DNA from: Circinella minor
Taxonomy: Eukaryota > Mucoromycota > Mucoromycetes > Mucorales > Lichtheimiaceae
Reading direction: 5' to 3'
DNA: 64,000 nucleotides
NCBI GenBank assembly: GCA_016758965.1
Contig: JAEPRB010000009.1
Location: 1 to 64,000 of the forward strand
Both the position numbers and the translations under genes were made by a program. The notes under the pieces are model-generated. The model saw only the letters and a list, made by a program, of their open reading frames with translations. It was not told where the DNA came from and ran no database searches. This document shows, one piece after another, positions 7,435 to 61,282 of the stretch (its first letter is position 1; each line of letters begins with the position of its first letter).

Positions 7435-10405
7435 TTTTTTTTGTAGTTTATGATATTAATAATATATAAAAAGAGAAGTAAGGAAAGAAAAAAAAACTCA
7501 CGGAAGTAACAGTAAATAAAGGACCCGAATGTTACAAAAGAAAAGCAGGGGGACCTTTTTTTTTTTGGTATGTGTATCGAAATCTGTAGTATGATGAGAG
7601 AGCGAGAGAGACACTATCACATTAGGTGAATGTACTATCTTGTTATGTAGCAATAGTGAAGCACCCGATCAAGTTTTATTATTTTTTTGTGGCACCTTTT
7701 TTTTGTACCATAACAAAGGGTTTTGGCACTTGATGTGTTACAGATTTTGTAATTATTATAATAATATTAGAATACTTGTCTGCACCACGTTATACAAAAG
7801 AAAACTTTTAGAGTTTTTTTTTTCATACATCATAAGTTAGTTAATATTATTATTAAACATTATATCATAGTGGTATTTATTTTGAGATGGAAGTAAATAT
7901 TTTTAAATTGACCGTGTGTGTGTCTGGTCTCTTTTATCCTATAATTTAGACCATACATCCTTATCATCATTATTGTAAACACCATCATCGAAATTCTCAA
8001 TCGTTACATGTCATTTATAATACTTCTTTTATTTTTACACTAATCAAACAATGGCACATTGCCAACATAATGTTGTATTACGGTACACCCTCCAGTTTTC
8101 TTTTTTTTTTTTGTGTTCTTCGACCGAGTGACCCTTTTTTTTCTGGAGATACGTGAGTGCTAGTATAACTGCCATGCACAATAAATAAACATTAAAGCAT
8201 ACAAACAAAGAAGCATGACAAATAGTAGTAATAATAATAGTTACAACGCCATATGCAATATTTATTATTATAGTTTCTCTATTTTCCATGTGAATAAAAC
8301 GCATCATTTAACCATCAACCATTTCTTTATTGTTTATTGTGATTAGTTTTATGTAGTATTAATGGCTGACATATAGATATTGAACGAGCAAAAAGAAGTA
8401 GTTTGTTCCTGCAGTTCTACTTAAAACTAAGTATTTCTAAATCATCTATTTATCTTTACATTATTCCAAATAATGGTCCTTGATTCTCTTAATGATTAAA
8501 TATCGAAATCATACAATAAGAACATGAGTATCATTACTCTTATATATTATTGAGGTCTTTTTACCAACGGTTTAGTTTTTATGTTTTGAGTCTATGCACG
8601 CTCATGGAATATCTAACAAGATATGGACTTTCAAGTACTCACAGTATAAATGTAAATTAATCTGATTTTTTATAATTACCGAGGTGTTTACAAACTCGAC
8701 TGAAATCACAAGGTTAGTTTCTACGCAAATTCAAATTCCATATATTGATTTAACAAAGTCGCACGCTATTGCTTTTGAATCGAATGAAATAAAACCAAGA
8801 GCTCAAAGATAAAAAGCTACTTTACCTTAAGTGAGAATGATTTAATCAAAAGAGTACACGCCTCTTTCCTTTTGATGTATTATACCATACTCATCAGTCT
8901 TACTAAAACAAACCACTACTTTTTAGCACGCACGATCCACGCAAGGTTGGAGTGTCTCGTTATGTTTTAATGTTTTTTTAAAAAAATGTAAATATCTTCA
9001 ACTATCTTTCTTCTTTCGGTGCATGTGTGATAAGTAAAGCTCGTATTAAAACCAAGATCGAAGAACACTACTATTCGATCAAGTACCCCCATCTTCTGGA
9101 AACAAAAAATAACTTTTATGTACACTGCCTCAAAAACCGTCCGCTAGCTTAATTAAAAAAACAAGGTCATCCTGGATCCGTTTATGATATATGATCAAAT
9201 AAAGGGTAGTGATTTCGAGTTAATCAGTACATTATCCCAAACAAGTTTCACTAAAAATTTTAAAGTACTTTGAACTTTTGTCAGCGGAAGGTACAGAAGG
9301 ACCCGTGGAAGATGGCAGAAAGAGTATATATATGTATGTCCTTGTATCTAGTAATCATTTACTACATAGACGCTCTTTTGACAGGACATATTGGAGGAGT
9401 ATGTGATGGTTGCAAAGTAAAGCAATCAGATAAAAGAATATAAGAATAGATAAAATCCATCAATCTATCAGCTCAAACCCACCTCCGTAAGTAATCTAAT
9501 ATATTCGATATTCGGTGGAAAATATGACACATACGACTTTCATTCCCTTTTTTCAATAGACGACGGCAATGACCATAAGTAGTGGTGGCGTTATAAAATT
9601 CTTCTCAATGCTTGCTATTACATATGTATTACGTATTTACTTTAGTCATTAGTTCTCAATTAATCAATAGTTGCATTCCAGAATTTAATAAGCATATATA
9701 TATTAACATTTGGTTATCCTTTTCTATTAACTCACCTGAAAGTATTGAAATGTAATTTTTTGTTGTTAATTTTACGTTAGTGACTTGACTTTATAAACAA
9801 GTATCATGTATCTGATGTTTTACCAGATACCTTTATATTTATTTATATAAAAATAATCTAGCTATAGTTTACATGGTGTTAGGAAAGAGGAATGATAACT
9901 TTTAAGAGTGTTTGAATTATACTATATACTGAATCATCAAGATAATAAAGCTATTTGCGTATTTTGAAGATATTATCATCTATAACTTTATAGATATATA
10001 GTGTGTAAAGGTTTCCTATCTACAAATACCCTTTTTTTCTTCTATATATAAAGTACGTATCATGGTGGATCCAAGTAGTAAATTATGATTTTTTTTCATC
10101 AACTGATCCATTATTCTTTATGATTTTTTTTTCTTTTTTTATATGTGCTCAGTAATATATAATAGATTATACACTCCTACCCCTGTTATTACTCACTCTT
10201 CCTTATCACAACCTAAAAGTAACAGAACCACACAAGCCATATCATCCACTTTTTTTTAAAATAAAAAAGAGCGATAAAAAAACACAATGATATGTATAAT
10301 AGTCAGCAAAGAATAGTTTTATTGCAGCAAGAGACTACGTAAGCACCGATGATTTATTCAAATTAACTGTGCATGTTATGAGCTATGATTGGTATTTATA
10401 TTTGT
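7435..10405. other. Intergenic AT-rich DNA, no gene seen
   Basis: About 3 kb between the Vam7-like gene and the histone H3 stop. The part just upstream of 7434 should hold the Vam7-like promoter. Only short frames with no recognisable domain occur, on either strand. I see no tRNA-like, repeat or conserved block. Confidence 0.6.
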
Positions 10406-12020
<1,615 letters not shown>

Positions 12021-14135
12021 TTATGCTCGACAATCTACTACTTTGATACTTTGTGCAAGTTCTGGTGTTGATTCTGATCGTTGTGAAAGTCCTTTGTTGT
12101 TATTATTTTCATCTCGTATTACTGACCAAATGCTGAACTCGATAGCTTTACCAGAATGATACACAACTCCATCTTGGCGTACAAACAATAGAGGTAATTC
12201 CAATCGTTTTACATGTCCTGAAGGTGGAATCAGAGAGGCTATCGAAGATGTTGTGTTGTTATCGCTATCGTCTTTGAGAACTTCCATTGCTGTTGGTAGT
12301 TCGACAGAAACATGGGTACTGTGACGTGCAGATCCTGGTTGTTCTGGTTGGGAACTGACATGCCGTGCGGAAAGTGAACCATGTGGTCCCAAATAACATT
12401 CAAGCATCTGTGGATCGGGTGCAGCTTGAATCAAGTGTTCTCCAAATATATCAACAGAGTGTGTATCAGGTTTATAAAGAACTGAAGAAACGACAGGAAA
12501 TGGTGTAATGCTACGACGAGCTGGTTGTGAAATTTTAAATGATGACGGTGATGTTGCAGAAGAAGAACTTGTTCCTTCATGTTGGTGCTGAGATGTAGGC
12601 GAGGGTAATGATGCTTGTTGTTCTTGTAACGGGGACCTTTCGGGCTCAAAGAAGCTGTATTCAAATTGTGCAATGCCAACAATAGTCCAACAAAGATAAT
12701 CATCTACTTCTTCATAAGCAAGTTCTAAACTTGGTTTGTTTGGACGAACAATACGTGATTCTGAAAAATCAATCCATGAACTGCTTGTATGACCACCGGT
12801 TTCAGCACCATCGGAACAAATACCATCCATGGTAGCACCTGCTGCACTGAGATACATTGGTTTGTTTCGGCCATTGGTCGATGCTAACTGAAGTGCCACC
12901 TTTTGCATTTGACTGACTGGACCAAAAGCACAGGGTGCAATTCTACCTTTGTCGACCTTACGTATAATTAAAAGTGGTGAAGTTATCCCCGTATTATGAT
13001 CACGAAGTATCAGCTCTGTACCGTAAGTCACTGGAATTCCTGCTGTTGCTGGCGCTTGCGAAGTTGTTAAAGCTGTGGATGTGCTGCCTGGTATTGCTGT
13101 TGTTGTTGCTGGAACCCCTACTGCAAGGTGTTGATGATGGGGTTGTTGATAGTGATTTGGTCCACCTACTGTTCCTTGCATAGATGGGCGTACCAATATA
13201 ATATCAAAAGGTGACCATAAAGCATTTTTAGCACATAAACGGTTGTCTGCTGAAGTCAAGTACTTTGTACGAACTGTTTGTGAATTGATTCGGTTGAAGA
13301 GTGAAATGGGTGCATTGGTTAATATACATGAGGATACATTGCGTGCTTTGGCCGTCTTTTTGGAAGGTTTGGATATAATCGAAATCGGATGAGATAAAAA
13401 GGTTGCATAGGGTTGTTCTTGTTGTGCCAAGTTCAGACTTACACGCAGGCAAAACTGTTTGGCCTTAGCTGTACCTGTAACATGTAAAAACTTGAAACTA
13501 CCAGAAAGTGTTTCGTCCAGCATGACTCGTTGCTCCAAGGGTCGTTCTCCATTTTCACAAACAATCGCCATGGAAATGTCGTGAGCATGACGGTCCACAA
13601 ACCCATGTGATCGTAAAGTAACAACAGGTGGTGGACATAAAAACCGTTTTTCGGATCCATACGATTTTTGAGCAACAGCAGCATGTAAACATTTTATTGT
13701 TGTCATTGATTGGGACATTACAGAATTATTGTCATGTTTTCGTTGCTTTACTACTCGTTCTTCAATGTTGATTTCGTCTTTATTGTTATCTTTTGAATCG
13801 TCGTCGTTATAGCTATTGTTGTTAATACTGACGTTGCTATCTTTATCGTCAATCCAACGTCGTTTAGAAGCCATTGTTGGAGTTGTGAAATTTGGAGAAG
13901 CGGAAGAAGAAGCTGAAGAAAAAGAACCGGAGATTGCAGTTGTGTTTGTCAGTGCTGATATACTAATGTCGGTTCTTTTATTTGAGGCTGTGGTAGTAGA
14001 AGAATCACCGTTGGAATCAAGTAATGCTTCAATTGACATTGACTGTTGTGTTTGCGTTGGAGAAGAGTTAACTAGTTGAACTCTTTTACTAGAACCGAAG
14101 ACTTGTTGTGAAACAATTTGTGAATGTTGACTCAT
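12021..14135 (-). CDS. CSL (RBP-J/Su(H)/Lag-1) family transcription factor
   Basis: An intronless 704-residue protein. The family signature is clear: KSYGSEKRFLCPPP at 157-170 corresponds to the DNA-contacting loop of the N-terminal Rel-like domain. Then come ISIISKPSKK near 250 and SQTVRTKYL at 285-293, which aligns with the SQTVSTRYL loop of RBP-J. A beta-trefoil domain follows (LLIIRKVDKGRIAP, then PVSQMQKVALQL), and the C-terminal part from about 545 reads as the IPT/Rel-C domain. The first 110 residues are Ser/Thr/Asn-rich, with a basic patch (VVKQRKH) near 130. CSL proteins bind GTGRGAA-type sites. Fungi lack Notch, and in fission yeast Cbf11 and Cbf12 act in cell cycle, adhesion and lipid metabolism. 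Loop lengths between the beta-trefoil strands are longer than in animals, as is usual for fungal classes. I cannot assign class F1 or F2 with certainty. Confidence 0.93.
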   Translation of the reverse strand: MSQHSQIVSQQVFGSSKRVQLVNSSPTQTQQSMSIEALLDSNGDSSTTTASNKRTDISISALTNTTAISGSFSSASSSASPNFTTPTMASKRRWIDDKDSNVSINNNSYNDDDSKDNNKDEINIEERVVKQRKHDNNSVMSQSMTTIKCLHAAVAQKSYGSEKRFLCPPPVVTLRSHGFVDRHAHDISMAIVCENGERPLEQRVMLDETLSGSFKFLHVTGTAKAKQFCLRVSLNLAQQEQPYATFLSHPISIISKPSKKTAKARNVSSCILTNAPISLFNRINSQTVRTKYLTSADNRLCAKNALWSPFDIILVRPSMQGTVGGPNHYQQPHHQHLAVGVPATTTAIPGSTSTALTTSQAPATAGIPVTYGTELILRDHNTGITSPLLIIRKVDKGRIAPCAFGPVSQMQKVALQLASTNGRNKPMYLSAAGATMDGICSDGAETGGHTSSSWIDFSESRIVRPNKPSLELAYEEVDDYLCWTIVGIAQFEYSFFEPERSPLQEQQASLPSPTSQHQHEGTSSSSATSPSSFKISQPARRSITPFPVVSSVLYKPDTHSVDIFGEHLIQAAPDPQMLECYLGPHGSLSARHVSSQPEQPGSARHSTHVSVELPTAMEVLKDDSDNNTTSSIASLIPPSGHVKRLELPLLFVRQDGVVYHSGKAIEFSIWSVIRDENNNNKGLSQRSESTPELAQSIKVVDCRA

Positions 14136-17100
14136 GAAACAATTTTTAAAAAGAAAGGATAAAATAAAGAAAAGTGGTAAAGAAGGGAAAATTATTATGC
14201 CTTAAATATAAATGTTGTTGAGAAGTTGATCACCTGTGGTATTATTATTATTATTATTATTATATTGTTACTGTGGCGATGATGATGTTGCTAGGTTATT
14301 AAAATATTATTAACAACAGAAAAAACGTGAAGAGAAAGAGAAAGAAGAAAAAGAATATGAGAATGTGAATATGAAATTTAATAAACTAGATTACAGTATA
14401 GCTGATGTAATAATATAATGGGGGGAGAGGATAAAGGTTGTTGATGTGAATACTAGATGATGAAAGCATCTCAACATAACACAACACAATAAGGAAGGGC
14501 TAATTGATAGGCGGTGTTTCGTTTTTTCGAATGAAATGAAATGCAAAAACAGTTTTTTTTTTTTTCGTTTAACCTGTTTTAATCAAATCAACACCCAATT
14601 GTCTGCGGAGATTTCGTGAGTCATACTCTTTTGGAGCGACCTCATTGCTTGCTGTCAACCAAACCACTTCTAGAGGAAATGGGAATTGAACAGATAGTTC
14701 TTGATGTACCTCCAAGATGACTATTGACAGTAAAAAAAATGGTTAATAATAGAGGACATTAGCATTATGTAGCTTATTCATTCAATATTTTCTAATGAAA
14801 TGTACTCATATGATTATAAATATAACGGGTTTCTTCTCGTTCGATCTAAAAACGACGGCAAAAAGAAATTATAATAGGTCACGAGAGCTTCAAACTCTCC
14901 CACGCAAAAATATGCATATAAAATAAAATCATTCATTCCCAACAAGAGTATTTTCTCAAAGAGAAATATATATATTTCTATCATTGTGTACTTAAAACAA
15001 TTTAAATATACTTTATTATTATTTGACATTATAGGCAATCGTCGAAATGCAATTTGCTAAAGATATGTGGTTTCTCACATTTTTTTCCCTTTCTTCTGGA
15101 CTACTGTAATGCGAATTTCCTTTTGTAGTCTAGATAATCTTTAGCGCACTGATCTCCGTAATGACGAAACGGGTTGCCTCGACGAGTTATGATGCTTGAC
15201 GATGATGTGACCACAGATTGGATAAATATAATCAACAACCCGCGGTAACTAGTTCTCAATGGAAGTGATAAACAACATATTTTATTTATTACCCTGTCTT
15301 CCCCCCCCCAACCGTTTTTTTCCACACAGCAAAATCTTTTCAATGTAAAAAGCCTTTTCGCACGGCTTTCATTTTCACACGAACTATTGTGTGTGTTTTT
15401 AAAATAATGCATGCGATAATTTTACAGATTCAAATGTAAACATGTGATGTACATATCTAAGAATGCTTGTATCATCTATGGCTTTATCGAATATTTTTTT
15501 TATCACGATTATAAGTTATTCATTTAAAAAAAATTACTTGAAGATTGATGATAAACGGATAATTGTTTTGTTTAGTTTTTTTGTTTTTTTTTTTGGTGTA
15601 CCGAGTAGTTGGGTTTCTTTTTCTACTTTCACAAGCTAATGATTTGTTTTTGAGACGAATGATAGACCACAATTAGCTTATTGTTAAACCTGGATATAAC
15701 GGGGAAACCTGGTTTGAGGTTTTTTTTTTTTCGTGCGTCACACTGACCATGATCATTATCATTATAGGCAATATGCGGTGCTTCGATTGATAATTAAGCA
15801 CATCCTCTTAATCTTTAGTTCATGTAATAGACTTTAAGCTCCTGTCAATATTTTTTTAAAAGAAGTAACATGTATACAAACTATAATAACATTCCTTATT
15901 GACTTGGAATTTTGAAGAAATGTATATACGTGTCACAATTTATTACATTTTTATATTCTATTACTCATTAATCGTCATCAACTTTTGATAGATTGGCAAG
16001 TAATATCATTGAAACTTTTATCATCCCTCATCCAGGATTTACCATATGGGGTTATGCTTTGTTTATCAGCTGTCACGAGGCACATCTACCGTCTTTATCC
16101 AGTCTCTTGGATAATTACTCTCCCCTGTTCTCTGCTTATAACTATAATTTTCCATAATACAAAAGTTATAAAAACGTATCATCAAGCCTATATTAATACA
16201 TTTTACATATTTTGTTAGTAGAGCGCTTGTATCATAATCAAGGCAACATATTTATTTATATTACTTATTACTGGTCTTAAAAAAAGTTTTATTTTGGTGG
16301 GACAAGGTCAAATCAAGAAAATAAACACCCGTTTCATTTACTTGATGTGTGTTGTTAAAAAACAGAAACATGTAGAAAGTACTACTACAAAAAAAAACAA
16401 TACTGAAATAACTCCATACATTATTCCATATTTTGTCTTCCGTAGTGAAAAAAAAGACATTATATTTTATCTTCTTTTTCCCTGATGTCATGATTTATCG
16501 ATATATCAAATGTGTGTCATTAAAAACGAATCCGGGTGGTTGGTATTATTGTCTTTCACACTGCGTTATTTATATATTATCATTATTATTAACAATTATG
16601 TCGCGCGTCATTTTATAAGGCAATATCATTGTAATGAAATCAACAAGAAAAAATTCAAAAGGCTGAGCTCTTGCGATTAGAAAAAGGAAGACAAATCGTA
16701 TGATATGAATGTACAACCCATTTGTTATTTTTTTTTCCCAGGAAATTTACACACGGATTGTTTTTATTTCATGTCTCATTGAACACAGCGCCAGGTTTGG
16801 CATGTTTGTTCCAAACAGGTCATACAAGTATTAAATTAATACGAAAAGACCCTGTTGAGGTACAGGGGAAAGGATTGAGCTAATATAGTGTTTTGCGTTT
16901 AAAATATATACCTAAAATGAGGGGTGAGTAGAAAATATAATGAATATACGTAAAGGTTCAGAGATTTAATATAACTCTTGGCACTTGAGTGAAATTTTTC
17001 AATATAATAATTAGGAACTCATCGGAAAAAAAGAGTATATTTTCTAAGTAACCTGAAATTTGAGTTATAATCCCAAATATTTTTGCTTTTATAAAATAGT

Positions 17101-29560: not shown

Positions 29561-31273
29561 TTACACATCTACAATACGCTTGATGCGATTACATTCATCA
29601 AGGTGTTCTCCTCGATATTTAATAAGATAATTGCCATGTTCTTTAAAAGTAACAGTCTTATTAACCGGACAACCCTAAAATTATAGAAAAAAAAATATTT
29701 AGCGCTTTTGTTTATAAATTTGTTTAAAAATTAAATGTAGGAAAGTAAAAAAAAAAAAGGGTTACCTTTGCACTATTTGAGCATTTATAATATATACTCC
29801 TATAACCGGATTTCTTATGAACCGTGTTTCCATTGTTTTTCCAAAGATAGTCATCATTGTAAGGAAATTCACGAGTTTCAATAATAGTACTTATTGCTTG
29901 CATTTCGCGTCGTCGTCTCCGCCGAGCGACTGGACGTTGTATCCGACGGGAAGTTGCTGGTAGAATGGGTAACTTATCAGGTGGAGGAAAGGGTGGGAAC
30001 AGTGGTTGATAGACTTGTCTTGGTTCGATTTGATGAGGATGGGCGGGTTGATACCTTTCGGTCGGGTGCGTCATACCGGTATCGCCATCAGTGTCAACTG
30101 GGGATAGAGCAAAATCTGAAGAAGCACTAAGTAAAACAACAATGAGATTTTTTTTTTCTTTTTTATACGTTGTCATCTTTCATTTAGATAATAAATAGTA
30201 TTGTTCAAAGAAGAAAAGAAAAAAGAGAGAATTTTTGCTTACGTTGATCTGTTGGTATTATCTTCTCGTGGTGAGGTTACGTGGTTAATAGAAGGTATAT
30301 TGAAAGAGATAGTTGGAGAGGTAGTAGAAGTTGTGTTTGTGGGGGTTGATATGGGCGGTAAGATGGTTGATACAGGTTTTGGTGAATGACTTAGTAGTGA
30401 ATCAATATTGTTGGTACTTTTTCTTCGGCCTCTATGGTGTTCCTGTGATTGTTGTTGCTGACGCTGTAATTGCTGATCCGTGGTGGAAAAAATTCTCCAG
30501 TTTTCTGTTAATTCGGGAGAATTACCAACCGCGGAATCCTGATTAACATTTTGGTGCAATTGTGGTGAACGGATCCGTGGAAGGATTGACCCGTTATTGT
30601 TGTTATTATCTATTACCAAGCTAGTAGTTTCGCTAAAACGTCGTGATGTGTTATCATCTGTTATTTCCCAACTATGCGTCGATTTATCTATTGGTGATCG
30701 ATGAGCCATACTATTTGACCGAGAGGTTCTAATATGTTGCTGCTCCTGGTGTCCTGACTCAGGTGTAGTATTATCTGAATCATAACGATGTTGTTGTAGT
30801 AAATAATCAATTTCTTTCTGTCGAAGTTTAGCTTCTTCTGCTCGTCGTCGATCTTCTTCTACTTTACTCGACAATATCAATTCAAGCAGATCCCGCTGCT
30901 CACCATATTGTTGAACAACTTTTTCCAAATTAAAAAAAGGAGAAGAATTACCGTTGCTATCTTCATCCTGTTTTGACATTTTAGGACTTGGTATAGAAGC
31001 TGCTGTTGATGCTGACATTGACCTCGAAGATGTATGAATAGATGAATTATAATAGGAGTATGGTTTGCTTTGTAAAGAAGTTCGTCTACTAGATGATATC
31101 GATGCCGTGGCTGAAGTCATTAATGGTGTTGATGGCTGGCTGGTATTAGGTGGTGATGGTGGATAATGTCGTGTTGTTATAGAGCGATACATACGATCAT
31201 CTTTATCGAGTGGTGTTGAATATATGGACTGATTTGTTGTAGGTAACATGTAAAGATTCCTAGTTGCAGGCAT
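29561..31273 (-). CDS. WRKY/GCM1-like zinc finger transcription factor
   Basis: Three exons on the minus strand (31273-30243, 30126-29766, 29674-29561) give 501 residues. The C-terminus carries a WRKY-like domain: DDYLWKNNGN at 435-444 in the position of the plant YxWRKYGQK strand, then KSGYRSIYYKC, and zinc ligands Cys459-x6-Cys466-x21-His488-x3-Cys492, with GCPV after the first Cys as in plant WRKY proteins. The domain is split by an intron between the two cysteines. A helical segment in the middle of the protein (RDLLELILSSKVEEDRRRAE) is a likely coiled coil for dimerisation. The rest is Ser/Pro/Gln-rich. The chosen Met (31273, MPATRNLYM) follows an (ATT)n leader; the longer open frame upstream to 31453 is A/T-rich and probably 5' UTR. 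FLYWCH and MULE-type zinc fingers share this fold and are the alternatives. Targets are unknown. Confidence 0.8.
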
Positions 31274-34200
31274 ATTTATTATTATTATTATAAATTTTAG
31301 AAAAAAAAAGGGAAGAAAGGGAAAAGAAGGGCTTATTGTTTCGTAATGAAAAACAAAATAGTAAATTACCTTTTTTTTGCGGGAACACAAGCCTGTTTCG
31401 TTCAGAATTTCCCGGATCTGTCCTTTTTTTTCTCTAATTCTTTCAAACCACAAGCCTTCCCCCCCCCAAAAAAAAAAAAATTCTTACATGTAAATCATAC
31501 CAAATTCTTCTTTTTTTATTTATTTACCCCCAAAACTACTCTATGACAAAGCAAAAGTGAATTAACCCGCCTATTTTCTTTCAATGCTCATTTTAGTATG
31601 TATTTTCTTTTGACTTAAAATCATCACATGTGTAGAATAGAATTCATCCATTTTTCACAGTAAAGTATTAGTCCCGAAATTGTTCTTTTACCTTTTTAAC
31701 ATTAATTTACCATTTTCTTGGAGTACACTAGTAGTAAGAAGGGAGGGGGGTGATGACGAGGAATTAATGTATATCCTTTCACAAATAAATTATCATCAAA
31801 ACATACTGTTTTTTTTATCAGCCATCTATTTCCTTTTTCCTTCAATCACGGAGAAAAAAAAATTGTTCATTCAACTCGGACATTTAACCAAATTCAATAG
31901 CTTTCGAACTTCTTAAAGGATTAATGCTCAAAAAGCAAAAAGCTCCAGTTTGCGGCTATATAATCCAACCAGCTTAACCCACATTAACAAAAACCCAGCT
32001 GTCAGGACTAGCGAATGAAGAGTAAACCATGCGCTGCTTTTTTCCCCGCGCTATTTACAACGCCCGAGTTCGTCCGACTAAATAATATGTGGGGGAAAGT
32101 GTCTACATATATAAAACTTATTAGGCTGGGAATGAATAAATGAAAAGTATGAGCCAGTCCCGATTTGTTATTGTTTTCACACGAATTAGTATTTTTTTTT
32201 TCCGGAAACTTTGTAATAAAAAAGGTACAAGACGGTATAGCGGAGTGTGCGGATGGAAGCGACCTTATTAGCCAATAAGCTTACAAAGGCTTCTGATTCC
32301 CGTCCTTCTCTTCCCGCACTTCCCATTTCCCAGAGAGCAGATTCCGTTCTGAAATTCGTAGGGACTATAGGGTCCTCAGACTTATGTAACTTTCCTGTTT
32401 TCCCCATTTTCAGTTTCTTTTTCAGCGGGGTATTTTGTTTATTATTATTATTCTTAACTATATTCTCTCTCCCCCACGATTTTGTTGCTTACATGATTAC
32501 GTTGTCAGTCATCTCCCCCACATTTTAAACTCCTGGTTAAAATAAAAAAGTAATGAAAAATAAATATAAACCCAATAACATTGACTTTATGTTATTGACT
32601 ATTTTATCTAAAAAAATAAAAAAGAGTGAGTTAACTATATATCATAGTTATTTTTTTTTTACCTTCTCATAAGGAACTCATGTATAAAAGCAAGATAACG
32701 TTGAAAATTCTAATTAGTCATTTACCGCGGTAAAATAATAATTATCTATTAAGTTCTATTTTTTTTTCAGTGTGCACTTAATCAATGACAAATAAGTAAC
32801 ACTATTTCCCAGACATCCCGCCCCGTAGGGACTCCAGGGGACTTGCTTATCAAAGCGATAATTTATGGTCACCTTTATACTTTTTGTGTAATCATTCTAT
32901 ATTACTATTTTTGTACCTCCCGCGGTGCCAGACAATTATGTTATTTATTTATTTTAGTCCAAAGAGCCAATTTATGAAACTTTTCGTCCTCGGCTTTTGT
33001 CTGCAGATTACATCCTTTTTTATTTATTTTTGTGAAACTTTTTTCAAACAACTCACACAACTAAATCCATTAAAAACCCATACGATCATTGTCCATATAC
33101 AATAAATCATATTGTTGTTTTCTTTATATGACTTGAAATAATGTGTAAGCATATTTCTTCCCGACAAAGATAACTTTTACTTTCTTGTCTTTCCACTCCC
33201 AAAAATATATAATAATTTAACAGGGGAAAGGTGATTTCCTAATTTTTTTCTTTTACAAATCATACAAAAGAATACTATGAATATTTAATAAAGTTCTATG
33301 AGAATAAATATGTGCACATTCTTCTCTTCTCTCTCAATCAATCAAAAAAGTTATGTCAGCAGAATTATAAGTTATAATATTAGTCTTAAACAAAAATGGC
33401 CCTTTCTTATTGAAAAAAAGGATAAATAGGGGCTTTGCTGACACAACCATTTCTATAATAATAATGTTGCTCCCCTTTACACCCTTCTTATACCTACTCA
33501 TTATGTCAGCAGGTCGTACATTAGCAGATGCGTGTGTGAGTTTGTTAAAATTTTATTTTAAGGAACATTAAAAGGGTTACTATAATATCGCATCAGTAAC
33601 CAACCAAATAATTATCCCACTTTGGCCTAGTTTACCTAATTGATCCACATGGTATATATATGGATAGACAAAAACCAATAATAATAGCTTTCAATGTATA
33701 ACAAAAAAAAAGATAAGCAGCATTTATTATTTATATTTTATGCTAATAAATCGGACTTGTATCATCATCAAACAATCCATTCAAAATTCTTTTTAAGTTT
33801 ACGAAATAACGACCGTAAATATAGCTTTATGCTACATGCCATTATCGACTGATCCAACAAAGTGGGGCTTATACGTAGATTTTCAAAAGGCTTCACTAAA
33901 GAGGTCTGATTCTATCAAATAAAAAGCTTTGTTATGAGAACGACCTATAACTTTCAAAAAAAATTAGACTGAAAAAAAATATAATACGTATATAAAGATA
34001 AATTGAACAAACTCCAAGCAAATAGACTAAAATTATACGTATAGTTATTATGAATACTTTAGAGACTATATAGCTACGTATACATAAAAAATTTTCAATA
34101 ATAGAACTCAAACAGATAAAAATATATCCAAACTTTCTTTTGTCGTATATATTTTGTCAATGAAAAGTTTAACCACTTTCTGCTCCATATTTAAACAACA

Positions 34201-38720: not shown

Positions 38721-41408
38721 ATGACACAAACTCAAACAGAACAACATAAGACAATTGGCAAACGAAGGTCTTTTAGTGCTTGGTTACGTCGTAAAGTTAC
38801 CCCAAAAGGGTCTGTTAGGAAGATATCACCTCGTTCAGAAACAACTTTTACAGAACCTCGAGGTAAAAACATATAGTTTATAGTCTATCGTATTCTTTTG
38901 TTCAAAAATTAACGCCATTTTTATTATTTATATTATTACTTAAAAGCTGTTTTTGGCGTACCATTAATTGAATCAATTCAATACGCGCGTCAGACAATAA
39001 GTTATCAAGATGAAGATGGTACTGTTTATCGTCAAGCTGGTGCGATTCCTACTTTAGTGGCTAAAACTGGCTTATACCTTAAACAAAACGGTAAAAAAAA
39101 ATAAAAATAAACAAAAAACAATGTCGATAAATAAGCGAGAAAAAAAAAGAAATTGTTTCAAGTACATAATTATTATGAACACGAATAAATAGATTGTTCT
39201 AAACGGATTTAGACGTTTATATGTGTTCTAGCATTACAATCTGAAGGGATTTTTCGATTATCGGGTAGTTTAAAACGCGTTGCAACACTTCAAGAAGCAT
39301 TCAACAAACCATCCTATGGAGCCAATGTAGAGTGGGAAGATAATACTGTGCATGATGTAGCTACTTTGCTCAGACGATTTTTGAATCAATTACCAGATCC
39401 AGTGATTACTCACGAATATTATCAATCCTTTCGTGATGTGATGAGTAAGTATCCAATTTATTTGTTGTGTGGCTGACTTTTTATTTATGGGGACACAGAA
39501 AAAAAGAAAAAGAAAAATCTTCTGTTTAATAATAACAATAATAATAACAATAATAATAATAGATGATAATGCATATGATTCAATCGAAGAACGAATTGAT
39601 GCATTTCAAGTTTTAATTGAAAAATTACCATTACCACATCAACAGTTACTATTATATATATTGGATATGCTCAATTTATTTTCAAGACATTCAGCTGATA
39701 ATCGAATGGATGCGTGTAACTTGGCAGCAGTATTTTGTCCGGCTATTTTAAGTCATCCATCTCATAATACGCCTGTACAATATAAAATTTCTCAACGTGT
39801 GATTGAATTCTTGATCGAGTTTCAAGCCTTATTTACAATGCAAATGGTCAATAAAAATAATAAGGTGGATGGATTCGATAGCAATAATGACGATGTGCCG
39901 CCCGTGCCCGTGTTACCTGATTGGGTTGGTGCTACATACATATCACAAAAGACGGTTCCGCCACTCGATATGGAAACTGTCCATCACCATACTAATGGTG
40001 GCGGTGTTCATAGACAAAAAGATCATAGCCTACCTTTAGATTCTGGTACTGACGTCAAGACACCCGCTCCATTTCATCTCAAGGATAATAATGATGACAA
40101 TGATGATGATAATGCATCTACTCCAAGACAAGTTCCTTCACCACCACCAGGTGTTAATGTTACACCTGCTTCTCCTATCGTTGATTCTCCCCGATCTATT
40201 CATGCAAGTGCGGATAATAATAATACAAACAAAAACACCGATAGTCCTATTGGAGTTTTAATGCAGCAATGGTATAAGGAATATTGTGAAGGTAAAAAAA
40301 AAATCACTTTTATACTATTATATGGGAATAATGTAGAAAAAAAATGAACGCCACGGAACTCAGTTTTAAGGAGAGGAAAAAGAAAAAAAAAAAGAAAAGA
40401 AAGGAGGATATTATCTGCAAATGTGTTATGTACAAAAAGATGAGAAAAAAAAGTGAAATTTGCTTATGAAAAAAATAATAAAAAAAGGGGACGGAAAAAC
40501 CGAGAAAAAAAAAAGCATGTGGTATAGTTGTTTGGCTGTAGATGATCGCCCAAAAAGTTGGATGATCTAGAAAATGTTAACCTTAATTTTTTGTATTTTT
40601 TTTTCTTTTTTATGCTTATCATATATTTAATATATCCATTATTATAGATAATACAATAGTACTTGGAATAATGGCAAGTGTAGGATTACTTTTTATATTG
40701 GCAGCCGGATATGGAGGATACCAAGCACTCACGTTCCGTAACTTGATAAATGGAATTGTATTCTTTGGCGGGTTGAGTTTATACGGAATGATGATTATGC
40801 AAGGGGTTAACAAGAGGGCAGAAAAAAAGCCATCTGCTGCAGTAACAATGGATAGTGATGATAATGGCTGTGAAGACCATATTGAAGATCTTACAACGGA
40901 AACATTAATAGAACAAGACAGAGCTACGGAAGAAGCCATGTTTAAAGATGAATCGCTTATGGCCGTATGGGGCGATCTAATGAATCGATCATGGAGAACT
41001 GATCCGGCCACACCATCCATAATGCGGAGGAATTCTTCGTCCGACTCTTATTTTAATCGTGAACAAGATACAGATGAAGAAATAGATCAAGCATCCATGC
41101 TTAGTATATCGAGCAGATTCAATGAAGAACAAAATAATAATAGTAGTGATGATGATAATTATGATGATGATGATGATGATTGGACGCCACCCGATTTGGC
41201 AGAAGAAGAATTACAAAGATTATGGTATCAATTTCAACAAGTAGAGAAAGATAAGGATTTGGCAGAAAAGTTACAACAAGAAGAAAATGCAGCTGAACAA
41301 AAACGAGATGAAGCTACCAATCCATTTTTAGCAACATCACCACCAATTTCACCTCTCAATACAGAACAAGAATCATGGAAAATTGTTGCTCGGCCACAAA
41401 AACAGTGA
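38721..41408 (+). CDS. RhoGAP protein with predicted C-terminal membrane hairpin
   Basis: Five exons (38721-38862, 38947-39090, 39232-39444, 39563-40291, 40648-41408) give 662 residues. The basic N-terminus leads into a RhoGAP domain from about residue 48: GIFRLSGS with the catalytic arginine finger Arg104, LLRRFLNQLPDPVI, and CNLAAVFCPAIL. RhoGAPs speed GTP hydrolysis by Rho/Rac/Cdc42 and so limit polarity and actin signalling. After a Pro/Asp-rich linker, the last exon encodes two hydrophobic stretches (about 412-435 and 440-460), then an acidic, Gln-rich tail rich in casein-kinase-like sites, ending RPQKQ. The last join uses a 356-base A-rich intron, long for this window. Without it the protein ends shortly after EYCEG, and 40671-41408 could be a separate gene starting MASVGLLFILAAG. 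The join is in phase with consensus sites, so I favour one gene. Confidence 0.78.
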
Positions 41409-45072: not shown

Positions 45073-48062
45073 TTAATGTAAATTAGATGAAGCCTGTGAT
45101 GAAGCTGCAGAAGGCGGAGGACGTTGCCAAACACCCACACGACCTTTTCGATCTGTTGTAACAATAACATCTTCACGAAAATAAACTCCTACACAAGGAT
45201 CTGCATGTACTGCCTTGACCATCGTAGGCTGTAAAAATGCAACCTGATTTTTGGATTGAATCGGATGAACTGTAGGTCCTTGATCCTGTATGGCATTTAA
45301 CATATTCGCAGGAGGGCCATTATGCTGCGATGACACTGAATTTCCTCGATGTCTACCACCCGTTGTCGTTCTCTAATATATATATATATATATAGATCAT
45401 TGTCAGTTTTATGAAAATACCTTTTTTTTTCTTGAACTTACCATTTTCGGTCTGTGTAACGCATTAACTGAAAAATCCCATAATATTAATTTTGCATCCT
45501 CTCCTACACTTGCAAATCGATATACTCTTTCATCACAACGCCAAGAATCAAAAGCAACTCCAGTAACATATGAACTATGACCTTGACATCGTGCAATTAT
45601 TCGTTGCTCACGGAAAGCCCATATCGTTACAAGATCATCCTCACCACCCGTCTAACCAAAAAAAAAAAAAAGAAGAGAAGTATGAATACTAGGAGGTGGA
45701 TTAAATAATTTTTTTTTAAAAAAAAAAACAAAAATACTTACAAGTATATATCGACCATCTGGACTCCATGCTACACAATTCATACCACCATAATATGATT
45801 GATAAATATCATATAATCTAAAAATAATATATATATATATATAAGTCAATCCTATATTTTTTTCTCCAATAAATAGATTTATAATAAAAAAAACATGAAA
45901 AGCCTTACGTTTCTTGAACAAAATTAATGACCCGCAATAAACCATCCAATCCAACTACTGCGACATGTTGACAATCCGGTGAAAATGCAAAAGCTACATA
46001 TTATATTTTTTTTATCATATAAATATTCATAATACTATATAAAAGAGATTTTGTGATTACTATTTTTTTTACCTTTAATTGGTTTTGAAGATAATGTCCA
46101 ATGTGTCACTGGGTTACATTTCATAGAAATCTTAGGCGATGGCTTGGTTACTCGAAACCTTCAATAAAAAAAATCAGTTTTTATTTTTACTTTTATTTTT
46201 TTTCCCCTGAGTAATTAAAGTACACACGCACACAAATAGGATCAAAATCTAAAAGAAATGAAATGAATGATGGACTCACGTAGTTTTTTGTTGTGATTCC
46301 ATGGTAGTATTCGATGTATTGTTATGATGAATATGTAAACTTCCAGTGCTGTAATGTTTCCGCCGATTTAACATAGGAGGTGTTGTAGAAGAAAGCCCAG
46401 TCGTAGCCAATGGATGAAATGGCTCATCTTCTTTATCTTTATCAAATATCATCATCGTTCCATCTGCGAATGCTGCCATAAATAAAGATTCAGAACCTTG
46501 TAACCATTTAATCATAGTAATAGCTGACGAATTCATGATACCCTACATATGTATATATGGCAATATTTTAATTTTTAACATGCTTCTTTCTACATTATTC
46601 ATACCCACCCCCGTCCCGATTTTTACTTAATGCTAACTTACACCCTTATTTATTCGACCATACTTATTACAAAGTGGATCAAACCATACAATGTCACCCG
46701 ATGAAAATCCAATAATAATGTCCAGATGATCAGATCCTCTTGTTAATAAATTTACATCGTGTGCTGTTGGATTAGCTTTGGCAAAAATAATACGCGAAAG
46801 TGGTTCCTATTTTAGAAATTGTTATATCATCAAGTTACACACAGTCTTTTTTTTTTGTCGTTGCACCACAAAACATGTACACACAAAATCCAATCCCGAA
46901 AAAAAAATGTTACCTTGGGATGACCAAATGCATCAATCCACACAAAACTATTTCCACAATTATAAAATAAATTGGTATCTTCACTAGTCCTAGCTACGAG
47001 AATCTTGGCTAATTGATTATTGGTTACAATTTTATTAACAAAACTAGATGATGTCTTTGTAATATTTGTTCGAGGTTTTCGTCTAGAACTGACTGTATTA
47101 TTTCTTGATAAGAATGAAAATCCTCCATTATTACTATTCCCATTGCTATTATTAATATTGTTGCTATTGTTATTGCTATTGTTGCTGTTGCTATGGATAT
47201 AATTATTATTACTATGACTAATACTGTTGGTTGTACTGGTTGATAATGAAGACGATATCATATTTGGGGGTAAAGGTGGTGACGTCGATAAGAAGGAAGG
47301 TCCTTCTAAAGAAGATCCAAGTTTGGGTATGATGCTATTGCTGTTGACCGCTTGACCTTCCGGAATAGAAGGAGACAAGGGTGATACCGGAATTCCACCA
47401 TGGTGGTTGTTGTAATGGTGGCCGTGATGCGGGTGAAGGTATCTATTACTGTTACTATTATTATTACTGTTATTGTTACTATTACTCGTCGTCGTATTAT
47501 TATTATTGTTACTACTGTTGTTGTTGTTGTTGTTGTTGTTATAACTCGATGAACTACTAGATAAAGAAGGTGTACGAGAATCTTCGTCCGAGTTATTACT
47601 ATTATTATTGTTGTTGTCATGAGAAGTTGAAGAAGAAGTCGATCCAAATATACGTCGGTAGGACCGTGCACCCGGTTGTGGCTCGTAACGTTGTAAATTA
47701 TTGAAAGTTGTTTCTTTATACTTGATGGAGACTAAACTGGCAGTTGTACCTATACTAAAGTTAGGTGTCAAGGATCGAAAAAAAGCTTGATTGGCTAAAT
47801 GATAAATGCCTTCAGGAGCTTGAAACTCCTGACATTCATGCCCTGGAATAGACGGTGGACTGTAGGTTGTCATGCGAGATGAAGTAGATCGAAGAGCATC
47901 GCCGGCCGAATGTCGTCGAGTAATGAAGTTTCCGCCCTAAAAAAATATAAAGTATGTATACATATCGAAGTCAATACCAATAATAATAATAATAATAGAT
48001 AAACAACGGGTACATCACTTTTGATATGATTTGTTTTGTTTTTTGCTTACTCCGTCGACCAT
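45073..48062 (-). CDS. creC: CreC/WDR20-type WD40 protein
   Basis: Nine exons on the minus strand: 48062-48051, 47936-46914, 46806-46642, 46542-46280, 46158-46073, 45993-45909, 45817-45742, 45651-45442 and 45372-45073. The joined product is 739 residues. The first exon encodes only MVDG. The N-terminal third is unusually Asn/Ser-rich (long AAC/AAT runs at 47130-47620). WD40 repeats follow: [56 protein letters not shown] with [13 protein letters not shown], and [15 protein letters not shown], closing with [17 protein letters not shown]. This order matches WDR20/Aspergillus CreC, which binds and stabilises the CreB/UBP46-type deubiquitinase in carbon catabolite repression and permease turnover. 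All phases agree, so the gene appears intact. Human WDR20 is shorter because it lacks the Asn-rich insert. Confidence 0.92.
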
Positions 48063-55219: not shown

Positions 55220-57667
55220 CCTAAGTATTCCAAAAATCGTAGGATAGAAATAACAGCAACATTGAACATTCAGTAGTAGTTTAATGAATTACTTTTTTCT
55301 TTTTGGTATTTCTCCGAACCATTTGTGTAAATCATTATAAGTTTGCTCTGTTGCCAAAACAAATAGAATACCGCAAGATTGAGTATGTACAAAAAAATGG
55401 CATATCTCTTTTGATTATTTTAAAATGAACTTTTTTTTCTTTGGAGATTTTACCGGGGGAAAAAAGAAAACTAATGTTTGTCTTATTGCTTGGAAGCGTG
55501 GCAAGTCGCTTATCAGAATATACATGGGAATACTATACACTACTTAAGGTAAACTATTTTTTTAATCATTACTACGTAAGTCTATAAGAAGTAAATGTAA
55601 AAAATTTATTGAAGAAAAAACCATTATCCTAAAAACGGATAATAGAACGCTTGGGAATTTTTTTATGATTTTTATTTTTCTTGTTACAGAGAACGAATCT
55701 ATTCTTATATCAAATTTCTAGTTCTGCTAAAAGCTTCAATAATACAATCTTATCTTTCTGGAACATGTGGTAATTGTTTTGTATTTATAAACTACGTAGA
55801 ATTGAGAATAGAAAAAAGAAGTAGTGTTCTTGTCTGTGGCAAATAAAAAAGAAGATACTATAAGCTCATATTATATGAATACTGAAAATAATGAAAAAAG
55901 TTGTATCATTATCTAATCATAAACCATATTTAATCAGGGAAGGAGTTATTGTTATAAAGATGGGAAGCAAGTCATCAATATGAGTTGTCTTTATTCATAT
56001 CACGATACGTATACAAAATTTTATTTATAATAAAGTTTGAATGCTTTGATAAGCTAATATATATAATTATATTGCTTTGTCAACTATAAATCAAAAAAGT
56101 ATCGAATGATAATTCTTTTAAAACCAGAAAGAATGCACTACGTATTATTAAAAAAAAGCTTCACTAGTCTGAAATATAATATTTGTTACTACATACTCAC
56201 TCAAAGTTGCTTCAAATACTCAGTTAAAATGTGCTGCCATAGAAGCTCATTAAAGAATGTGGACTTGATGTGGACCAACCAAAAGTTAATTATTTTTTCT
56301 CATTACGTAACAAAATTAAGGTCTACTTGATAATGTCAAGTTTTTAATGCTGTTTATCTCAACAATTATTTTATTTCAAAAAAGGGGGATTTCCATGGCT
56401 AAAAATAAAAAACGTAACCGCGTTGAACCAACAAACATTGGACAAAAGAGGTATTGTCGCTTCTATGATGATTGCAAAAAGGTACAACGTGTCATATGGG
56501 CTTCGCCGTATGTATTAAAGAGTGTTGGGATGTCAAGATAATGGAATCAAAGTGAATCTTCATTAATGCTTCAATGATCGAGAACAAGTAAAAAAAAAAG
56601 TATATACGCTTTCTAAGATGTTTTTCTTTTTATATTGGGTTCAAAAAATGCTACACTATATGCCCTTCTCAAACTTCTGCGGTACATATATTGGTGTACT
56701 AAATGTAGTATGTAATAAGTAAAAGAGAAAGAGGAAGGTTTAATATATACATAAAATTGAAAGTAAACTTATTTTGTGTAAATATATTAACTTGTAATGA
56801 CAGCTTGATGCATGGAGAGGGAGAAAAGCAACACAAAAATTGAGAATACTTTACTAGAGATGATTAAAAACTTTCAATGCCAGATCAAAGTCCTTATAGG
56901 TAAAGGGCTTCGGTATACATTGTGATCCCTCCGCCAACGCCTACGCCAACATTTTTTTCTTTATATCAAAAACAACTGCCTCTCTGTTCTTCAACCACAG
57001 CCACAGTCAACTTCTATTCTCCTCATCCTAACAACCATCCCGCAACTGCTATTCAAGAAACAAGCATCAATAGATTTTTTTTTAAAATACTACGTATTAA
57101 TAACAAATAATAAATAATAACAAAAACTATATATTTTTTTATATATTGAAGCGTTTAATCTGTGATTGAAGTACTTGGTACGTATAAAGATATATAATAA
57201 AGAAAAAATAATACAATATTATGTAGTTGTATTTCGATATTAAATTATATGAAATAGAATATAAATTTGGGTTGTGGGAGTTCTTAATATATTCAGGCGT
57301 AAAAAAAATATTGTCTAAAGAATAGAGTTTTGTACATGTTTTCATAGCCAAACAAAGAAACAATTTTGTTTAGCATAATTAATGGATCACAATTTATAAT
57401 ATAATAAACTTCTAAAACATCATAAATTTAAAGAGTTTTTAGTTGTATGGCTTTGTAGACTATTGATCTATTTATTTTTACTCTAACTTGAAATGTACTA
57501 TATCGTACATGTTTCCAGAGAGATCGCGGTTCCTAGGTAACACACAGCCACCAATAAATTGAGTCGCGTACTTTTTTTTTTTAATTTCAAACAAAAAGTA
57601 GACAATACAAATTGCGCGTCGTCGCGTTTTTTCTTCTTTTAAAAACACACCACACAAATCACACATA
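53301..57667. other. 4.4 kb AT-rich intergenic region
   Basis: No gene recognised. A short plus-strand frame at 56395-56541 (from MAKNKKRNR to KSVGMSR) has protein-like composition, but no partner exon or domain was found. A (CAG)12 tract lies at 55180-55215. The last 150 bases are the ASF1 leader. Confidence 0.5.
55180..55215. repeat. (CAG)12 trinucleotide repeat
   Basis: Twelve uninterrupted CAG units in otherwise non-coding DNA. The flanks carry no open frame that would make it a Gln or Ala tract. Confidence 0.95.
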
Positions 57668-58726
57668 ATGTCTCTTGTCAACATTTTAAACATTACGGTA
57701 TTGGATAATCCTGCTTCCATTACAAGTCCTCTTCAGTTTGAAATTACATTTGAGTGCAATGCTGAACTTCAAGATGGTAAGCTAGTTTTTATTTTTTTCT
57801 CTATTGACCCTTATTATCAGTCATTTTCATCAACTACTTTCTTTTTTTTTTTAAAAAAAAAAAAACTATTGTCTTTTTGCTAACACATTTTACTTTAAAA
57901 TGCACCGAAAAAAAATAATTATGGTAAAGATTTGGAATGGCGTATGATTTATGTTGGTTCAGCTGAAAGTCAAGAATATGATCAAGTTCTTGATTCCATC
58001 ATGGTTGGACCTGTTCCTGTTGGTGTCAACAAATTTGTCTTTTCAGTAAGCTTTACTTTTTTTTTTTTCTCTTTTTTGGCTTTTTTTGTTGCTTGTTGGA
58101 ATTATTCTAAATATATTATTATCATCATAACAATTTATTATATAGGCTGGTCCACCAAAGCTTGAACTTTTGCCTCAAAAGGACCTTCTTGAGGTAACAG
58201 TAGTACTTTTAAGCTGTTTGTACCACGAAAAGGAATTTGTTCGTGTCGGATATTATGTGAACAATGAATATGTTGATGAAGCTTTGCGCGAAACTCCACC
58301 AGAGCAAGCACAAATCGATAAGTTACAACGAAACATTTTGGCAGATAAACCCAAAGTCACCAGGTAAAATCGAAGAAAAACAAAATTTGAAAGAGAAAAA
58401 AGAATGGTTATACTAAATAGGTTTCCATTATATTTTGATTTAGATACACCATTGATTGGTAAACAATTGAAGTTTCCTTTTAAGAGATATTGTGGCATGG
58501 ATGATAACATATAAATATTTATATGATTGATAATTAACACGTGTAAATATTTATATTCATAGGTCAAACCCACAACAAACCGATATCGCAGCCGAAGGAG
58601 CATCCGGTCAAACTGACCAGGTAATTTATATTTGTCATAAACAAGGGTAACCAAATGAGAAAGAAAAAAAAACATGGGAACTAATCATTTAATTCGTACC
58701 AAATTTAGGATATGATGGTCCAGTAA
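57668..58726 (+). CDS. ASF1: Histone H3-H4 chaperone ASF1
   Basis: Six exons (57668-57776, 57930-58045, 58146-58363, 58444-58458, 58563-58620, 58709-58726) give 177 residues. The immunoglobulin-like core is unmistakable: [54 protein letters not shown], and [20 protein letters not shown]. Val94, the key H3 contact in yeast and human proteins, is kept. The fourth exon is only 15 bases and restores RYTIDW at 148-153, the counterpart of the family's RFNI-W strand. Without it the core would lack its last strand. After the core only about 24 residues remain, so the long acidic tail of yeast Asf1 is absent. ASF1 hands H3-H4 to CAF-1 and HIRA in replication-coupled and replication-independent assembly. 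The histone H3 gene lies elsewhere in this window, but no linkage is implied. Confidence 0.95.
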
Positions 58727-59067: not shown

Positions 59068-61282
59068 TTATTTCTCCATGATTGCATCTGGGCCTTGCCA
59101 TAAATTAATGAGAATAGCAGCCACTAGCACTAATGAAAAACGACACCATTGACATAAACCACGGAAAAGACCTTGTAAGATCCAACGTGCACTGTCACTT
59201 ATTCCAGATGGCATTTCATCGTGGAATATTTCCGTACTATTAGAGTACTCGGTATAGCGTCTCCCACTTCCATTGTAACGGCAATCAAACGACGTAAATA
59301 ACAGTTCTGAAGAGAGTCGTGGGTAGAGATTATAAGAGTCATATACACTTCCGGATCCACTAGGGGAAAACATATCAAAGTCCATAATGCTACCACCCTT
59401 GATATTAATACTTTTCACACTGCAGGACTTGGTACTATTGGAACTACCATTGTTGACGCCACTCTTGATGTAACGCGCAGCCTCTTGGACTATTGAATTC
59501 TCTTTAAAACCAGCTGATGTTATGAGGGTCTCTAGTGCGTATTCAGCTGGTGCTCTGTAGAATGGTGCTAAATTGTGTTCCGTCAGACTTGCAACATCAC
59601 GCAATTTAGTCAAGGATAAACATGATTCAGAATCAGAAGAACTTATATGTCCCTCATCTTCATCATTGTGTTTTTCCTTTTCTTTAACAATACTGTTGAA
59701 TCGCTTGTTGCTATCGTTATCGTTGTCGTCATGGTGTTGTAAATTTTTGAACCATGCATTTTCCAATTCACCCAAAAGACTTTGTTTCGGTGTGGTCATC
59801 CGCAACTCTTGCACATTACATGAGAGTCTGCGACTACAATTTCTAACTGCAGATGATCCCACCACCATAAAAGAGCTGCCGCCGCATTCGCTAGGTGATG
59901 GAGATGGTTTAGGTGACCATCCAATACCTCGATCTCGTAAACGTGACAAAATAGTGCGATGGTCTTCCAAACTCGTCGTTAATTCTTCAATATGCTTAAA
60001 TTGGCGTTGGTAGGCTTCCTGTAAATTATCATATCCTTGTTGTGTAAATTGAAAATGATGAAATTGCTGGCGTAAATTGTCGAGATCTAAAAGGGACTTT
60101 TGTAATTTATCTTCAATAGCATTTTTAGCATACGCAAGACTTTCATTTTCTGATTGCATCTGTGTCATCTTTTCGGCAAGCTCTTCGGCTATCCATCGAT
60201 CATCATCTTCTTCGTTACACAAATAAGGCGTTCCTTGGTTTGGACCATCATTGTTATTGTTTTGATTTAGGCGTGCTGCTGCTCGTTCCTGCCGAGCATT
60301 CCTAGATTCTTCCAATTCTTGGATTTTTTGAACAGCACATTCAAGGTTACTTTTTAAAAGGTCAATTTCATTTTGTAATTTTCGTGCTTGTTTGTCATTA
60401 GCCTGACCCGTTGCTGCTGATTCATTCAAGGCATTATCAAGCATATGTTGCATTTCTGTGTTTTTACGTTCAAGTGCTTCAATTAGTGCTTCGCGTGCAT
60501 TTTGATTTGATATCAGTCGCATGGTAGTGTCATTGTATTCATCGTCTTGATCATCGTCATTGTAATTTTTTTCATCTTCATCTTGACTCCCATGAGCACT
60601 ATCCCAGCCACCATCATCGATCGACGGTGATGGTAAACTTTGATTGCATTGATTTACTTGCTGTAATAAATCTTCATATTTTGATTTTAAAGACATGTTG
60701 TTATCAAGTAATGACTTGCCAATTTCGGCTGCGAGTGCGAGGTCTATGACGATATAAACAAAATAGTTTATTATATTTGTATGTTAGTAATAGATAATTA
60801 TTATTTTTTTTACTCCAGCTACAATTTAATAATGATATTGATGACTGATTGAATATAATATATCACTGCGTGTTTATGCATGCATACGCACGCCCCCTCT
60901 TACCCCTTTTTATCGTTCTACTAATTTTCTTTTTCCTTTTTTTTTCAACACCCCTTTTTTTTTTCTCTTCCCCCACACTACTTTCTCTCATTCACATACA
61001 CAAATATTCTATTTTTTTTTATCTCTCACATCATTATCGAGTACACAGTTAAAGAAAAACAGTACTACTGTTTTTTTTTATATTACCTTTGTCTTTTTCA
61101 CGAAGTGAGGAATACGCGTTCTTTAATAACGATGTTAGTTCAGTAGATGATTTATCAGCTACCCAAGAAAATGATGACATAAAAGAAGCTGTTGATATTG
61201 CTCCTGGTGAAACAGGTTCTGTGTTTGGTACTCGTTGTTGTGATAAAGTAGAAAGTGGCGGAGGTGTATTACGACGAAGCAT
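59068..61282 (-). CDS. Coiled-coil protein with dynein-adaptor CC1 box and C-terminal membrane anchor
   Basis: Two exons on the minus strand (61282-61087, 60743-59068) give 623 residues. Residues 66-81 read DLALAAEIGKSLLDNN, an excellent match to the CC1 box (AAxxG core) with which BICD, BICDR, TRAK/HAP1 and Spindly bind dynein light intermediate chain. The intron splits its first codon. Long coiled coil follows (about 138-230 and 255-330), broken by Asn-rich loops. QSLLGEL at 386-392 resembles the Spindly motif that touches the dynactin pointed end. The rest is Ser/Asn-rich. The last 25 residues hold one hydrophobic span (about 598-614, CRFSLVLVAAILINLW) and a short polar end (GPDAIMEK), the layout of a tail-anchored protein. 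I infer a membrane-bound adaptor linking an organelle or nuclear envelope to dynein. The end lacks the PPPX of canonical KASH peptides. Function is inferred from motifs only. Confidence 0.75.

Follow-up and report, generated by a model that had tools for sequence, protein, structure and literature searches.

The window analyzed here is a 64,000-nucleotide stretch of Circinella minor DNA, and the gene of interest occupies positions 59068..61282 on its minus strand, with an ATG at 61282 and a stop codon at 59068, so the coordinates given in the earlier note are exact at both ends. In our gene model, the spliced product has 623 residues and is encoded by two exons joined in frame. Exon 1 (61087..61282, minus strand) contributes 196 bases, covering residues 1-65 and the first base of codon 66, and exon 2 (59068..60743, minus strand) codes for residues 66-623 and the stop codon. 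Both are separated by a single intron of 343 bp (60744..61086, minus strand; GTAATA...CATAG) that immediately precedes D66 of a CC1 box, and two other genes of the same family in this genome have open frames interrupted where this intron sits, before the CC1-box aspartate. The modules of the protein follow the order CC1 box, coiled coil, Spindly-type LLGEL, and one membrane-grade span. The CC1 box, coiled coil, Spindly-like QSLLGEL, and hydrophobic C-terminal span that had been claimed for this locus are thus all present in the 623-residue product.

The gene is convergent with one for the histone chaperone ASF1, which extends over several exons at window positions 57602-58367 (plus strand) and has three open frames matched by Pfam ASF1_hist_chap (E values of 1e-9, 7.1e-17, and 2.7e-29). 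Elsewhere in the window, an open frame at 12021-14201 (minus strand) combines LAG1-DNAbind and beta-trefoil domains, which suggests what we take to be a CSL-type transcription factor, and other frames carry a PX domain (6217-7452, minus strand) and a RhoGAP domain (39445-40347, plus strand). Three long frames (30239-31483, 40587-41408, and 46830-47936) had no Pfam match at an E value of ≤0.001.

The CC1 box lies at 60664..60743 (minus strand; residues 66-92) and is defined by Pfam and profile matches and by invariant positions. Its first part is DLALAAEIGKSLLDNN (residues 66-81), followed by the segment SLKSKYEDLLQQ (residues 83-94), and it is preceded in exon 1 by a conserved lead-in, SSFSWVADKSSTELTSLLKNAYSSLREKDK (residues 36-65), with a mean column identity of 0.70 in 32 aligned sequences. 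In the same alignment L67, L69, A70, A71, E72, G74, L77, L78, N81, L84, and Y88 are invariant. The AAxxG core was kept in 67 of the 69 sequences that cover the box, as expected if the assignment made in the earlier note is right, and the pattern AA[EI][ILY]G was found in 67/80. Among the 13 sequences lacking this pattern, nine are models that start downstream of the box core and two appear to be mis-spliced at the exon junction, by our interpretation. The remaining two are P0033 from Rhizopus arrhizus, with VAEIG, and P0073 from Gymnopilus, with ASAVA. As an alanine-to-valine change in the CC1 box weakens dynein binding in animal adaptors (PMC8319186), dynein binding by P0033 may be weakened as well.

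The Pfam family HAP1_N (PF04849) matched residues 60-99 of the window protein with an E value of 1.8e-6 and a score of 27.8 bits, short of the 33.9 bits set as the curated cut-off. Similar matches were obtained in 22 of the 32 aligned members at an E value of ≤0.01 and in 23 of the 40 sequences of a second alignment at ≤0.001, and 11 of 79 homologs carried a precomputed PF04849.19 label. Of P0073, P0074, P0076, and P0077, only P0074 (2.8e-4) and P0077 (0.055) were matched, both weakly, and unrelated families scored alike. A six-frame search with HAP1_N gave no match in the C. minor genome, which was to be expected because the match is short, split by the intron, and below threshold; the same search gave a sub-cut-off match in Thermotoga.

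No match was obtained when the window protein was searched against the PDB as a single sequence, so profiles were needed. A longer profile retrieved BICDR1 with a full-sequence E value of 8.7e-12, a value that takes in the biased coiled-coil stretch, and it also matched Crescentin and other coiled-coil proteins. The CC1 block was therefore searched separately, with a profile of 59 residues built from 15 chosen sequences, leaving out the long coiled coil, against 177,635 PDB sequences. The five best matches were four BICDR1 entries (5.8e-8, 1.3e-7, 1.3e-7, and 1.5e-7) and TRAK2 (4.7e-5), the matched region being the 36-residue CC1 core. Two Sir4 entries came after the adaptors (E values of 0.003 and 0.006) and were taken as chance matches. 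The earlier note had typed the protein as BICD/TRAK/Spindly-like, and this is supported, with a refinement: among solved structures, BICDR1 and TRAK2 are its nearest relatives. BICD2 (6pse) appeared with an E value of 0.74 amid unrelated entries and Spindly was absent from the best 16 PDB matches listed.

These matches bear on the suspicion that the protein is a golgin- or SNARE-like coiled-coil tether that does not bind dynein and has acquired its CC1-like sequence by convergence. Tethers are common among tail-anchored coiled coils, and coiled coils match many profiles spuriously, as seen here with Crescentin and with the single matches to ten other families in a Pfam scan of the 32 aligned members. 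Against this, the match is confined to the CC1 core, the five best of all the PDB sequences are CC1-box adaptors, and a second adaptor module, the Spindly-type motif described below, is conserved at the expected place, so we consider such a tether very unlikely. With significant matches to both HAP1_N and the BICDR1/TRAK2 structures, and with near-invariance among homologs, the CC1 box lies beyond chance, and we regard the CC1-box and tail-anchor architecture encoded by this gene as confirmed at the level of sequence.

Protein searches retrieved at least 79 homologs (72 + 1 + 6), in a word-limited search that says nothing on absence from other fungi. The named ones come from 25 genera (23 plus Cunninghamella and Hesseltinella), which we take to be Mucorales, Umbelopsidales, and Endogonales, and many of the remainder derive from metagenomes. 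The closest homolog among the matches listed is from Circinella umbellata and is 89% identical to the query over 59% of the query's length. C. minor itself has three family genes, the one in the window and those at C242 and C53, and each of the latter two has a CC1 box, LLGELE or LLSELE, and the tail. The third gene (G000:C53:140445-142166, minus strand; L023) shows the CC1 box DLKLAAELGRSLLDNN, LLSELE, and the conserved tail. In a midpoint-rooted tree of 53 sequences (50 of the 79 homologs, the window protein, and the C242 and C53 genes), the window protein clusters with Circinella, Zychaea, and Fennellomyces. Another large group includes the C242 gene, and P0078, P0079, and P0072 make up a separate cluster; the C53 gene sits on a long branch, and its placement is unsure.

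A single homolog is from a basidiomycete, the Gymnopilus protein P0073 (1172 amino acids). The family profile gave it 86.6 bits, compared with 7.7 bits for the best of 1000 shuffles of the same protein, which destroy the heptads and so exclude coiled-coil likeness incompletely. Nearly the whole score (73.2 bits) comes from the N-terminal stretch with the CC1 region and coiled coil, and the tail, WMWFQFAVVVLVFVYAMAKRGP, aligns in order and is weak alone (3.5 bits). Given the distance between real and shuffled scores and the alignment of both ends in order, we set aside the idea that P0073 is coiled-coil noise; in our reading, it is probably a remote family member in which the CC1 box has changed or decayed.

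To describe the regions that follow the CC1 box, we rely on the alignment and on a single-chain AlphaFold2 model of an Umbelopsis ortholog, P0030 (40 sequences, mean pLDDT of 69, pTM of 0.27). In this model the CC1-box helix spans residues 51-105, coiled-coil helices span 139-223 and 229-320, and a break (321-347) leads to another helix at 348-362. Residues 106-138 have no helix and low confidence, and this loop of the ortholog is predicted to be disordered. The corresponding acidic loop of the window protein (60520..60654, minus strand; residues 96-140) has a block identity of 0.21 and 14 acidic residues out of 45. The two aligned coiled-coil helices occupy 60265..60519 (minus strand; residues 141-225) and 59932..60204 (minus strand; residues 246-336, ending in HIEELTTSLEDHRTILSRLRD). 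From the CC1 alanines to the Spindly-type motif there are 273 residues in P0030, or 240 when loop 106-138 is subtracted, compared with 231 residues to the Spindly motif in BICDR1. The coiled coil that would span dynactin is thus about 240 residues long, close to the BICDR1 value, but it is broken by the acidic loop after the CC1 box. This is a difference from BICD2, which continues without interruption over the corresponding stretch (PMC9481740).

Near the end of the second helix, residues 307-328 (59956..60021, minus strand; QEAYQRQFKHIEELTTSLEDHR) show QxxY/H followed by acidic residues, which resembles the form of the heavy-chain-binding site HBS1, QxxY/H plus glutamates (PMC7615804). The pattern is conserved in 25 of 32 sequences and lies about 237 residues past the CC1 box, compared with about 33 in BICDR1; because of this difference in position, we treat the block as an uncertain candidate for an HBS1-like site.

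The Spindly-type motif SLLGELE (59761..59781, minus strand; residues 387-393) is the predicted dynactin pointed-end site. QSLLGEL corresponds to residues 386-392, and the general five-residue pattern, L-hydrophobic-X-E-hydrophobic (PMC9481740; PMC7615804), falls at 388-392. Taken alone, this pattern is weak evidence, as it is expected 0.55 times per shuffled window protein and occurs twice in the real one, the other occurrence (69-73) being a coincidence inside the CC1 box. What makes the motif meaningful is its setting. Residues 385-395 form a conserved island with a mean column identity of 0.66, with flanks of 0.20 before and 0.16 after, the strict extended pattern LLxEL is kept by 72 of 80 sequences, and in the P0030 model the motif begins the helix at 348, past the end of the coiled coil. 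Among the eight exceptions, the general pattern still covers P0078 (LLSEF) and P0033 (LMHEL), LSSEL occurs in P0069 and P0070, and P0021 has lost the motif; the others are P0001, P0072, and P0073. A second conserved island follows at 59494..59574 (minus strand; residues 456-482, NLAPFYRAPAEYALETLITSAGFKENS), with an identity of 0.52, against 0.16 on one side and 0.23 on the other, and a family consensus near LxxFYNxPxxxALExxLSxA. This region could be a site for cargo, kinesin, or self-inhibition.

The C-terminal helix and anchor cover residues 591-623 (59071..59169, minus strand), in which the hydrophobic span CQWCRFSLVLVAAILINLW (residues 596-614) is followed by QGPDAIMEK; the P0030 model also has a C-terminal helix, at 477-513. 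On the Wimley-White octanol scale, 596-614 is the best 19-residue span (-9.2; next best, -2.8) and the only membrane-grade one in the protein. The single span claimed near the C terminus is therefore there, with 9 residues left after it instead of the 10 first counted. A span better than -4 occurs within the last 60 residues of 78 of 79 family proteins, the sole exception being P0072, from a contig of 1463 bases. P0037 and P0055 have a stronger span elsewhere, which we read as intron or 3'-end read-through, and the span found within the last 60 residues of P0055 is a different one from the conserved tail. The tail itself is conserved in 79 of 80 sequences, 76 of them recognized by pattern and 3 by eye (the window protein, P0001, and P0002; CQWCRF), so the anchor is as much a family feature as the earlier note supposed. 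W, F, G, and P are invariant in 17 chosen tails, among them the basidiomycete tail and the one encoded at C53, which indicates that more than hydrophobicity is conserved. A tail profile searched against the PDB gave nothing meaningful, the three entries retrieved (two transferase records and TatB) having E values of 0.39 to 1.1.

The charges around the span suggest its orientation and membrane. The mean charge is +5.2 over the 24 residues before the span and -0.94 after it (n = 79), and the net charge after the span is positive in only 4 of the 79 proteins. Under the positive-inside rule the basic flank marks the cytosolic side, so the last ~9 residues would be in the lumen. Since this charge distribution is accompanied by a short conserved end containing GP, the membrane is most likely that of the endoplasmic reticulum (ER) or the nuclear envelope (outer nuclear membrane). 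Alternatively, the protein could sit on the mitochondrial outer membrane as the fungal equivalent of TRAK/Milton, in place of the Miro receptor or in addition to it. In favor of this, TRAK2 ranks second among the solved relatives, the matching Pfam family is HAP1_N, and the genome has a Miro match (C29). Tail anchors of the mitochondrial outer membrane, however, typically end in basic residues, while here the basic residues come before the span and the end is on average acidic, and similarity to BICDR1 exceeds that to TRAK2. We therefore judge a mitochondrial TRAK counterpart improbable.

The preferred location, ER or outer nuclear membrane, includes a special case in which the protein is a KASH-like adaptor of the nuclear envelope, whose GP end would engage a SUN protein in the perinuclear space and so link dynein to nuclei. 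The charge pattern and the short conserved end fit this idea, and the genome has SUN-domain matches at C6 and C80. Animal KASH proteins end in PPPX, but neither this end nor the plant VPT end was seen on inspection of the family C termini, the end after the span is only ~10 residues long in many sequences, and Pfam KASH had no match in the C. minor genome, in a search whose positive controls were also silent. Two KASH proteins, KASH5 (PMC9242646) and ZYG-12 (PMC12581424), have been described as membrane-embedded dynein adaptors. We regard the KASH-like case as possible, with the balance somewhat against it.

The partners that such an adaptor would require can be recognized in the same genome. 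Pfam DLIC matched at C412 and C21; the matched frame at C412 contains ANFFQSLLLRK, and at C21 SQFFQKLLYKN is found in a frame on the same strand just downstream of the match, presumably an exon of the gene for the dynein light intermediate chain (LIC). The FFxxLL helix of LIC is bound by Hook and CC1-box adaptors (PMC5841405). Dynactin p62 was found at C66, in a search that covered this one of the pointed-end proteins. HOOK_N matches occur at C119 and C158.

Putting these modules together, we consider the window protein to be a tail-inserted CC1-box adaptor of dynein-dynactin, with a probability of about three in four, and, by its modules, probably a new variant within this class. Dimerization, dynein binding, motor activation, and the identity of the membrane are what we infer here. 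A dimeric coiled-coil adaptor of the CC1-box class would lay its ~240 helical residues along dynein-dynactin, and its LLGEL motif would dock at the pointed end of dynactin. The C-terminal helix would insert as a tail anchor in the membrane of the ER or the outer nuclear membrane, leaving the last ~9 residues on the lumenal side, and would thereby hold the motor there independently of a Rab or Miro receptor. A broader and more speculative version, which we think unlikely, is that early-branching fungi possess an ancient adaptor class joining the CC1 box of animal BICDR/TRAK proteins to a nuclear-envelope tail anchor, the GP end being a new SUN-binding peptide and the protein serving as a per-nucleus dynein adaptor in multinucleate hyphae, and basidiomycetes retaining this layout with a decayed box.

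If the main reading is true, the CC1-box adaptor class would be older than the animal radiation or independent of it, as the CC1-box adaptors described in the literature consulted are animal and the fungal ones are Hook complexes, with Num1 as another fungal system (PMC8319186, PMC8730729, PMC7649786, PMC9481740). It would also add another lineage with an adaptor that is a membrane protein in its own right; KASH5 has been called the first such case (PMC9242646). Dynein adaptors fixed directly in a membrane are so far known from a few animal proteins, and this family offers direct tests of nuclear or ER movement in coenocytic hyphae, using species amenable to laboratory culture. Among the literature matches listed, none described a fungal CC1-box adaptor that carries its own anchor, subscription papers being mostly outside that search.

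Compared with known systems, the closest is BICDR1 (BICDL1), whose CC1 box EKDLVLAARLGKALLERN aligns without gaps with the fungal block and whose coiled coil is similar in length. Its chain contains SLLSEIE, which we take to be its Spindly motif and which resembles the fungal SLLGELE. BICDR1 is an animal adaptor that reaches membranes via Rab proteins and, to our knowledge, has neither a membrane span nor a disordered loop after the CC1 box. In TRAK1/TRAK2 (Milton) and HAP1, the CC1 box is DRDLELAARIGQALLKRN, and the Pfam family named after HAP1 covers the fungal box below its cut-off. TRAK2 has SLAAEIE opposite the fungal LLGELE, in a weak stretch that is not significant alone (5.0 bits). We know of no tail anchor in TRAK proteins. 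They bind Miro via a separate motif (PMC10897228). Among fungal systems, the FTS-Hook-FHIP complex is a dynein adaptor of the Hook type (PMC8730729), and the HOOK_N matches of C. minor are separate from the CC1-box family; Num1 is a cortical dynein anchor (PMC7649786). The comparison with KASH5 made in the earlier note survives in its logic, an adaptor fixed in the membrane; the fungal tails end in neither PPPX nor VPT. KASH5, a mammalian meiotic KASH protein working with SUN1, is fixed by its own span and has a putative Spindly motif after its coiled coil (PMC9242646), but it binds LIC through a pair of EF hands, where the fungal protein has a CC1 box. ZYG-12 of Caenorhabditis elegans likewise recruits dynein to the nuclear envelope with an anchor of its own (PMC12581424).
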